A model generated the notes under the pieces. The model searched no databases. It worked only from the letters and a program-made list of their open reading frames with translations, and was not told the DNA's origin. 26,654 bases of DNA, taken from positions 1 to 26,654 of IMG/VR virus record IMGVR_UViG_3300010233_000226; one strand, 5' to 3'. This document shows, piece after piece, positions 825 to 25,792 of the stretch (position 1 is its first letter; each line of letters begins with the position of its first letter). The stretch comes from a virus. The translations under genes and the position numbers were made by a program.

Positions 825-943
825 ATTAACAGCTTGATCTGTTGACTCTAGCCCCTTAAGGCTGGGGAAGGTCCTGCGTAGCGGGGCGGCACCAACCCAG
901 TAGTATAGTAAGCTGGACTAACTATAATCGGAGAAACAACTAA
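825..943 (+). ncRNA. Structured 5' leader of the SSB gene
   Basis: About 120 transcribed but apparently non-coding bases follow the promoter. Visible pairings are AACAG/CTGTT (828-832 with 839-843), CCCC/GGGG (852-855 with 864-867), GTCCTGC/GCGGGGC with a GTA triloop (871-877 with 881-887, two G-U pairs), CCAG/CTGG (897-900 with 913-916) and TATAGT/ACTATA (904-909 with 921-926). The last two interleave, as in an H-type pseudoknot, and lie just before CGGAG and the ATG at 944. It could be a regulatory leader or a stable RNA. I recognise no known family. Confidence 0.45.
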
Positions 944-4806: not shown

Positions 4807-6424
4807 AACAAGTTTCGCAAAGAGGATCTTCCACCAGAAGTACGCACAAGGTCCAGAGGATACTTGGGATGCTCTCTGTGAACGAGTAGTAGAGGATGTC
4901 TGTGGTACTAGGTGGGGCAAAGACCATGCTCTAATGTCTGATGGTGATCGTAAACAACTAGTAGAATATATGATCACTATGAAATTCGTGGCCGGAGGCA
5001 GATATCTCTATTATTCTGGGAGGCCTTTTAGTGCTTGGAATAATTGTTATTTGTTGAGGTGTGAGGAAGATACACGAGAAGAGTGGGCTAACGTAACTTG
5101 GCGAGCAATGAACTGCCTTACTACAGGAGGTGGAATTGGCATTGATTATTCGATCTTGCGACCAGAAGGTAAGCCTCTTTCCCGTACAGGAGGAATCAGC
5201 AGTGGCCCTCTTCCACTTATGCATGCAATTAATGAAGTCGGACGAAGTGTCATGCAGGGTGGAGCGCGGCGTAGTGCAATTTATGCGTCGTTAAATTGGC
5301 AACATGAAGACATTCCTAAATTCATGGTAGCAAAGAACTGGAATGAACTCACGGTTAGAGAAAAGGCAGCAGACTTCAACTTCCCTGGTCCTCTTGATAT
5401 GACCAACATCAGTATTAATTACGATGATGCATGGGGCTGTGAAGTCGGTAATCCAGTCTTCCTTGAGAACTGCAAGCAAGCAATGATGACCGGGGAACCT
5501 GGATTCAGTTTCAACTTTGGAGATAAAGAGAATGAAACGTTGCGAAATGCCTGTACTGAAGTTACGTCAGAAGATGACTCTGACGTTTGCAATCTTGGGT
5601 CAGTCAATCTTGGCAATATTGAGTCTCTGGAAGAATTCAGAGATGTCATTTCCTTGGCTTCAAAGTTCCTCGTCTGTGGTACACTTAGAGCCGATCTTCC
5701 TTACGAGAAAGTCTATAAGGTTCGGGAAAAGAACCGCCGTCTTGGACTCGGCCTTATGGGTATCCATGAATGGCTCCTTAAGCGAGGCGCAAGTTATGAG
5801 GTCACTGAGGAACTAAAACAATGGTTAGGAGAGTATAAGAGTGGATCGGAACGAAGTGCTAACGAACATTGTGAACGGCTGTATATCAGCAACCCTGTCG
5901 CATACAGAGCCATTGCCCCTACTGGAACAATTGGAATTCTTGCTGGAACTACAACGGGGATTGAACCACTTTTTGCCGTTGCTTACAAACGACGTTATCT
6001 CTCAGATGGTACAAAATGGAAGTATGAGTACGTCGTCGATAGTACTGCCGACCTCCTCATCCGAGAGTATGGACTCAACCCCGACACAATTGATACTGCC
6101 TACAAGTTAAGTCATGACTACGAACGACGAATCAAATTCCAAGCGGACATACAAGATTACATTGATATGTCGATTAGCTCCACAATTAATCTCCCGCCTT
6201 ATGGAAGCAAGGGAAATTCAGAGCAAAACATTGTGGAGTTTGCTACGACTCTTGCCGAGTATGCGCCGCGTCTTCGTGGATTCACCTGTTATCCAGATTC
6301 AAGTCGAGGAGGTCAACCCCTAACTGAAGTACTGTACGAGGATGCAATCAAGCACAAAGGAGTTGTTTTTACAGAGCATGACATCTGTGAGATCGGAGGT
6401 AAGGGTGGAACCTGCGGAGTCTGA
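4787..6424 (+). CDS. nrdJ: Ribonucleotide reductase, adenosylcobalamin-dependent type (class II)
   Basis: Catalytic subunit making deoxyribonucleotides for phage DNA synthesis. Visible family landmarks are NNCYLL (redox C87), MTGEPGFSF (234-242), NACTEV (N254, thiyl-radical C256, E258), CNLGSVNLGN (C268, the second redox Cys), APTGTIGILAGTTTGIEP (377-394) and SSTINLP (464-470). C534 and C543 near the C-terminus are candidates for reductant delivery. The 545-aa length, the QGGARRSAIYASLNWQHED segment and the absence of an NrdB gene in the window favour the B12-dependent class. No ATP-cone is present, so allosteric activity control is probably lacking. The gene overlaps small genes at both ends. 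Confidence 0.88.
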   Translation: MIKERFKTSFAKRIFHQKYAQGPEDTWDALCERVVEDVCGTRWGKDHALMSDGDRKQLVEYMITMKFVAGGRYLYYSGRPFSAWNNCYLLRCEEDTREEWANVTWRAMNCLTTGGGIGIDYSILRPEGKPLSRTGGISSGPLPLMHAINEVGRSVMQGGARRSAIYASLNWQHEDIPKFMVAKNWNELTVREKAADFNFPGPLDMTNISINYDDAWGCEVGNPVFLENCKQAMMTGEPGFSFNFGDKENETLRNACTEVTSEDDSDVCNLGSVNLGNIESLEEFRDVISLASKFLVCGTLRADLPYEKVYKVREKNRRLGLGLMGIHEWLLKRGASYEVTEELKQWLGEYKSGSERSANEHCERLYISNPVAYRAIAPTGTIGILAGTTTGIEPLFAVAYKRRYLSDGTKWKYEYVVDSTADLLIREYGLNPDTIDTAYKLSHDYERRIKFQADIQDYIDMSISSTINLPPYGSKGNSEQNIVEFATTLAEYAPRLRGFTCYPDSSRGGQPLTEVLYEDAIKHKGVVFTEHDICEIGGKGGTCGV

Positions 6425-25336: not shown

Positions 25337-25792
25337 TTAATCTCCTAAGTATTCGTTAGCTCTACTCAATAGAGCTTTGCTATCCTTAAACAATCCTAAA
25401 GCTGTATTACAAGTACTACAGAGTAGTCCACGGATTTCTCCTGTAGTATGGCAGTGGTCGACACAAGCAACATCAACACCATGCTCTATTCCTTTATGAG
25501 CCTTCAGAGGGGTACTACAAATCGCACAGGAGAAGACTTGTTTTTGAAGTAAGCCTATATACTCTTCCCAAGAGAGGTTGTAGTTCCTTTTAACAACATC
25601 CATTCGTACCTTTTCAGGATTCTTCTGTTTCCAGAGTTTTCCTGCTAGGTTTGTTGTCTCCCTGTTGGCTCTTTTTGAATAGAAAGAAACGCACTCTTTG
25701 CAATGATATGTATGACCATCCTTCCTTTTATTATCTTTATTGAAGAAAGAAAGAGCATACTCTACCTTACATCTAGAACATTTCTTCATCAC
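25337..25792 (-). CDS. Endonuclease VII-like HNH nuclease
   Basis: A 151-aa protein. The N-terminal zinc knuckle has C5, C8, C31 and C34. The C-terminal endonuclease VII/HNH module has CAIC (C89, C92), VDHCHTTGEIRGLLCSTCN (D112, H113, H115, C125, C128, N129) and then ALGLFKDS, matching the T4 gp49 core. Such nucleases either resolve branched DNA before packaging or behave as freestanding homing endonucleases. The position between scaffold and structural genes, with the start overlapping the scaffold stop, and the extra N-terminal finger favour a mobile freestanding gene; endonuclease I already supplies resolvase activity. Confidence 0.85.
   Translation of the reverse strand: MMKKCSRCKVEYALSFFNKDNKRKDGHTYHCKECVSFYSKRANRETTNLAGKLWKQKNPEKVRMDVVKRNYNLSWEEYIGLLQKQVFSCAICSTPLKAHKGIEHGVDVACVDHCHTTGEIRGLLCSTCNTALGLFKDSKALLSRANEYLGD

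Follow-up and report, generated by a model that had tools for sequence, protein, structure and literature searches.

The window, i.e., the whole stretch of DNA analysed here (26,654 nucleotides of the virus record IMGVR_UViG_3300010233_000226), carries near its start, on the plus strand, the C-terminal part of a split DNA polymerase of family A (97–807) followed by a gene for a 168-aa OB-fold, SSB-like protein with an acidic tail (944–1450). The 136 intergenic nucleotides that a preliminary description of this DNA had reported between the two genes are indeed present, with the polymerase stop at 807 and the ATG of the SSB-type gene at 944. A plus-strand sigma-70 promoter (TTGACA-17-TATAAT with a TG extension, 12/12) lies at 790–818, within the 3′ end of the polymerase gene. 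This extended promoter is perfect and places the predicted start of transcription near 825, and the RNA described below, upstream of which lies the polymerase piece, would thus form the 5′ part of the transcript. On the same strand, a Shine-Dalgarno-like GGAG, recognised from the sequence, stands at 930–933, beyond the conserved fold.

In the region 1–807, the family A polymerase of the window is split before the VDASALEW motif, and the start of the window falls inside the insert; in another locus (L026), an HNH-looking ORF occupies the position of the polymerase-splitting insert. Split polymerases have been described in the related OM43 phages (PMC10580990). Far from this locus, amid structural genes, a minus-strand ORF (25337–25792) resembles an endonuclease VII/HNH-type nuclease.

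The protein encoded at 944–1450 had no PHROG match, no PDB sequence match, and no significant Pfam match. Its AlphaFold model, built from 15 relatives, presents an OB-like strand order with a mean pLDDT of 76.6, and the top Foldseek matches of the model were mostly OB-fold chains, including ssDNA-binding ones, all with E above 0.001. On the basis of the modelled fold, the position, and the acidic tail, "SSB-like" appears a reasonable name for this product.

To find relatives of the leader, we used both the downstream protein and the leader itself. The scan of viral_contigs for relatives of the SSB-like protein gave 24 loci, and the upstream sequence was inspected at 22 of them (L015 and L017 begin too near the gene); only one of the 22, L001, carried the RNA at the polymerase-SSB junction. 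By eye, the SSB gene is preceded by TTGACA promoter-like sequences in L005, L008, L009, L011, and L024, where the RNA is absent from the junction. A conserved string of the element led to L025, shorter DNA patterns to L030, L032, L034, L038, and later L149, and a covariance model built from six members to the diverged copy L143, located within the contig of L024. The element of L038 has the same sequence as that of L032 and was counted once, giving eight distinct members: the window, L001, L025, L030, L032, L034, L149, and L143. Among these, L030, L032, and L034 are close kin, thus the independent changes are fewer than the cell counts given below. Positions 826–925 of the window are a full match to the covariance models R1 and R2. 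Model R2 found no additional convincing member in 43 whole viral records, the search for relatives of the leader DNA in named phages and plasmids returned nothing but one chance match, and the RNA is absent from the Pol-SSB loci of three named relatives. Several candidates were rejected: the L027 match and, after inspection, the remaining pattern-search loci were judged to be chance; L119, a Bacteroides locus, has the P5 string alone; the G031 match is antisense within an RNR reading frame; and L144 reaches 14–16 bits with the P5 loop missing.

In the window, the structured RNA element spans 826–925 on the plus strand, by full covariance-model match, with an RNA of roughly 95 nt (all features below are on the same strand). 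The junction J1/2 (GCUUGAUCU, 832–840) ends in AUCU (837–840), identical in 8/8 members of the alignment A3, and leads into the 5′ strand of helix P2 (841–845), whose partner strand lies at 892–896; A845 and C892 are mismatched in the window. Hairpins P3 (846–867, paired as 846–853/860–867) and P4 (871–887, paired as 871–877/881–887) cap P2. They are separated by J3/4 (AAG, 868–870; AAR in the members having P3/P4), and P4 is followed by J4/2 (GGCA, 888–891), identical in the seven members with P3 and P4. Hairpin P5 (897–916), formed by CCAG, the 12-nt loop UAGUAUAGUAAG (901–912), and CUGG, abuts P2. The unpaired conserved parts are therefore AUCU ahead of P2, AAR and GGCA flanking P4, and the P5 loop (UANUNUAGUAAG). 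The diverged member L143 is without P3 and P4 and retains AUCU, P2, and P5.

This fold overlaps in part with the one previously proposed. Among the three hairpins of the preliminary description, the second and the third correspond to P3 and P4 and show compensatory changes, while the first (826–832/839–845) is not kept in relatives and competes with P2, a helix that is supported by covariation and had been missed. Likewise, of the two interleaved stems thought to form a pseudoknot, 897–900/913–916 stands as P5, with one double change, seen in L143 (CUAG/CUAG in place of CCAG/CUGG), but 904–909/921–926 has 5–6 bp counterparts only in the window, L001, and L025, none of which clearly beats shuffled flanks. 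A closing helix P1 was also considered and rejected, being not clearly above shuffled flanks (in the best case, L149, 5% of the shuffles were equal). A conserved short peptide across the element was discarded as well, as it clashes, by eye, with the length changes between members.

Compensatory substitutions in relatives, set in advance as the test of a structured leader, proved abundant; the structured RNA is not refuted by this comparison and, given these changes, is present. In the eight-member alignment A3, standard pairs fill 98.4% of the paired cells and double changes occur in 12 of the 17 pairs; A3 was fitted to the covariance model, thus these counts are biased towards the fold. Double changes affect 5/5 counted pairs of P4 and four of the five P2 pairs, with GUUGG/CCAAC, GAUGC/GCAUC, GACAC/GUGUC, and GAUAA/UUAUC among the variants. 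None of 500 shuffles reached the A3 values for paired percentage, double-change pairs or cells, or covariation score, and the covariation signal collapsed when the partner columns were slid by 1–3 positions. The picture was the same in the unfitted MAFFT alignment A1 of six members, on which RNAalifold, unprompted, recovered the same four helices. The folding energy of the window leader is ordinary (z of −0.68 and −0.71); the leader stands out solely by cross-phage comparison and not by folding energy. Furthermore, the presence of G-U pairs on the plus strand fits an RNA read in the gene direction; the opposite strand would give A-C. Overall, we consider it virtually certain that the conserved fold, with P2 capped by P3/P4 and abutting P5, is real. 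In the window, L001, and L025, a competing lowest-energy fold disrupts P5, and a two-state switch of the RNA between P5 and this predicted fold is possible.

We then compared the genomic settings of the eight members. The RNA stands before an SSB-type gene in six of them (the window, L001, L030, L032, L034, and L149). In L030, L032, and L034, it lies between a full-length polymerase and an SSB-type protein, whose L030 version matches the gp2.5-like phrog_112 (E 3.3e-5), whereas the window type matches no PHROG. In L149, it is flanked by the polymerase and another SSB-type protein, and the longest nucleotide alignment shared by the SSB-type genes of L149 and L030 is 11 bases. The RNA thus stands before three dissimilar SSB-type proteins, and the phages that carry it fall into two groups whose polymerases and SSBs are of different types. 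In L025, it is located 3′ of the SSB gene and 5′ of an exonuclease gene. In L143, it comes after an RNR gene and is immediately followed by a terminator-like hairpin; no gene lies downstream, and a lysozyme-like gene converges from the opposite side. This terminator was read by eye, as the automatic scan omitted a loop exceeding its limit. In general, a same-strand replication gene follows the RNA in 7/8 members, with its start codon roughly 20–75 nt away. In the 150 nt preceding the L143 copy, no plus-strand promoter-like site of at least 9/12 was found, and the best promoter-like site of L034 (3225–3252) is inside the polymerase gene, more than 100 nt upstream of the RNA. The L025 and L143 placements, together with the dissimilarity of the SSBs, do not fit one operator for one SSB, and the RNA is very probably not SSB-specific.

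Some genes around these copies appear interrupted. In L025 (4781–5400), the exonuclease gene is seemingly interrupted about 10 codons in by an ORF (4813–5328) with the look of an endonuclease VII-type nuclease. In L143 (1–2315), the RNR gene is seemingly interrupted by a 221-aa ORF (818–1483) resembling a homing endonuclease.

Close relatives of the phages carrying the RNA are cleanly without it, and these empty sites are precise. In the L030 group, the same junction is without the RNA in L123, L124, L125, L127, and L129–L132. Between filled (L120, L121, and L133) and empty (L123 and L124) loci, identity is 80–93% for the SSB, 92–98% for the polymerase, and 90–96% for the downstream sequence. 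The string AACACATTGAGCC, which is the polymerase end in the empty L123, survives as a relic on the 3′ side of the RNA in L120; an old polymerase-end relic is also found 3′ of the RNA in L030, and the relic of L120 recurs as the end of the nuclease gene of L134. The presence of this relic in both L120 and L134 favours gain by insertion over loss. Across phages, the gaps at the polymerase-SSB junction measure −1 to 48 nt, about 80 nt, 109–136 nt (with the RNA), or 329–627 nt (with ORFs or a tRNA). Endonuclease VII-like genes occupy the junction in L126, L128, and L134, an ORF with an HNH match below the cut-off in L024, other ORFs in L002, L004, L007, L022, and L135, and a tRNA-Gly (TCC) in L018 (2906–2981). 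Homing genes close to essential phage genes are known (PMC10448857). From the comparison of these junctions, we infer that the RNA occupies a homing-type slot as an accessory cassette and would have entered it by homing or recombination.

The RNA represents a new family within a known kind, the phage structured RNAs. No match at the gathering cut-off to any of the 4227 families of Rfam 15 was found anywhere in the window, and at E≤10 the region 1–1500 gave one weak CRISPR match alone; no match at E≤1 was obtained for L001, L025, and L026. The ARAGORN model for tRNA/tmRNA is not matched by the RNA, and no description of it was found in the open-licence literature. The hammerhead ribozyme has an invariant CUGANGA...GAAA core, which the L143 stretch CUGAUAAGACGAAAC recalls by eye. 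We rejected this candidate, as the equivalent nucleotides vary and pair in P2 in other members, with compensation, and there is no Rfam hammerhead match. Like the Racr RNA anti-CRISPRs (PMC10651486), the RNA would be a solitary small accessory RNA in phage genomes; unlike them, it is without significant similarity to CRISPR repeats, among the repeats held in Rfam (the best match of the window, CRISPR-DR54, has 19.6 bits against a gathering threshold of 39, E = 0.81).

The leader forms a compact structured RNA that belongs to an undescribed family and is read in the same direction as the replication genes, and its anatomy, as seen in the sequences compared, most likely points to an RNA that would bind a factor. 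In the explanation that we favour, an accessory RNA cassette would enter the phage junction by homing or recombination, would be strongly expressed in the window from the promoter at 790–818, and would expose the P5 loop together with the junctions AUCU and GGCA for recognition by a trans partner, which could be a second RNA or a protein of host or phage origin. Taken in full, trans partner included, this statement is tentative, and we hold it at somewhat under an even chance. A free RNA (small RNA or decoy) is slightly preferred over action within the SSB message, because the L143 copy keeps AUCU, P2, and P5 without P3/P4 and is followed by a terminator-like hairpin but by no gene. The stable phage small RNA that the preliminary description had named as its second option is thus a possible reading. 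A more specific form, in which a family of phage-encoded trans-acting RNAs would spread via the homing-endonuclease slot at the polymerase end and would, for example, inhibit a factor of host defence or RNA handling or serve as its decoy, seems unlikely. The main rival of the trans-partner reading is a cis-acting leader, a 5′ UTR that would control the replication gene behind it in the manner of a riboswitch or in response to a protein; for this control, P5 might alternate with the long-range helix GCUU(G/A)/UAAGC. The nearby start codons in seven members, the location of the window RNA between promoter and ribosome site, the lowest-energy fold that breaks P5 in the window, L001, and L025, and the pairing of GCUUG or GCUUA with UAAGC in the window, L001, and L149 are all coherent with it. 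However, the alternative helix is missing or mismatched in L025, L030, L032, L034, and L143, the ribosome site lies outside all conserved pairing, the downstream proteins vary (three SSB types, and the exonuclease in L025), L143 has no downstream gene, and close relatives manage without the RNA. We consider this second reading somewhat unlikely.

Action like that of the put RNA of phage HK022 ranks after the cis leader. The put RNA acts via the zinc-binding domain of RNA polymerase; here, the RNA would bind the host RNA polymerase during elongation, so that it pauses or terminates less within the replication operon. The put RNA consists of two stems, about 70 nt, just downstream of PL (PMC9378689), and in the window the RNA begins at a perfect sigma-70 promoter, with two abutting hairpin domains near the transcript start that resemble put in outline only. 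On the other hand, it contains a three-way junction on P2, the L143 copy precedes only the terminator-like hairpin, and the best promoter-like site of L034 is distant, which makes this mode of action improbable. Just as improbable is an element of message stability or processing, such as an RNase barrier, exchanged between phages: it would agree with an RNA that occurs in 5′ leaders and that, in L143, follows the RNR gene close to where the transcript of this gene presumably ends, but the strict conservation of loop and junction nucleotides goes beyond the needs of a simple barrier hairpin. Autoregulation by the SSB, the function initially suggested for this leader, finds its model in the T4 gp32 operator, which includes a pseudoknot overlapped by the segG homing endonuclease gene and an unstructured tail whose UUAAA/UAAA repeats extend across the ribosome site (PMC535899). 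As in the T4/RB69 gene 32 operator, a structured RNA lies just 5′ of a phage SSB gene, in six of the eight members, at a junction visited by homing endonucleases. In contrast to that operator, the RNA has no conserved pseudoknot, its second stem being confined to a few members; the 27-nt tail of the window (917–943, ACUAACUAUAAUCGGAGAAACAACUAA) contains no UUAAA/UAAA repeats; and the element also occurs outside SSB leaders (after the SSB gene in L025, before no gene in L143), precedes dissimilar SSBs, and is missing from close relatives and from the majority of phages that share the SSB type. An autogenous operator is thus very improbable.

Returning to the RNA as an accessory element with a possible trans partner, the presence of the cassette at these junctions suggests that the slot of homing-type nucleases can apparently carry a non-coding RNA. 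An RNA family supported by covariation and absent from Rfam, together with natural pairs of close relatives with and without it, offers a clean handle, for comparison and experiment alike, on the function of accessory phage RNAs, and the RNA cargo of homing-type nuclease sites would become directly testable.
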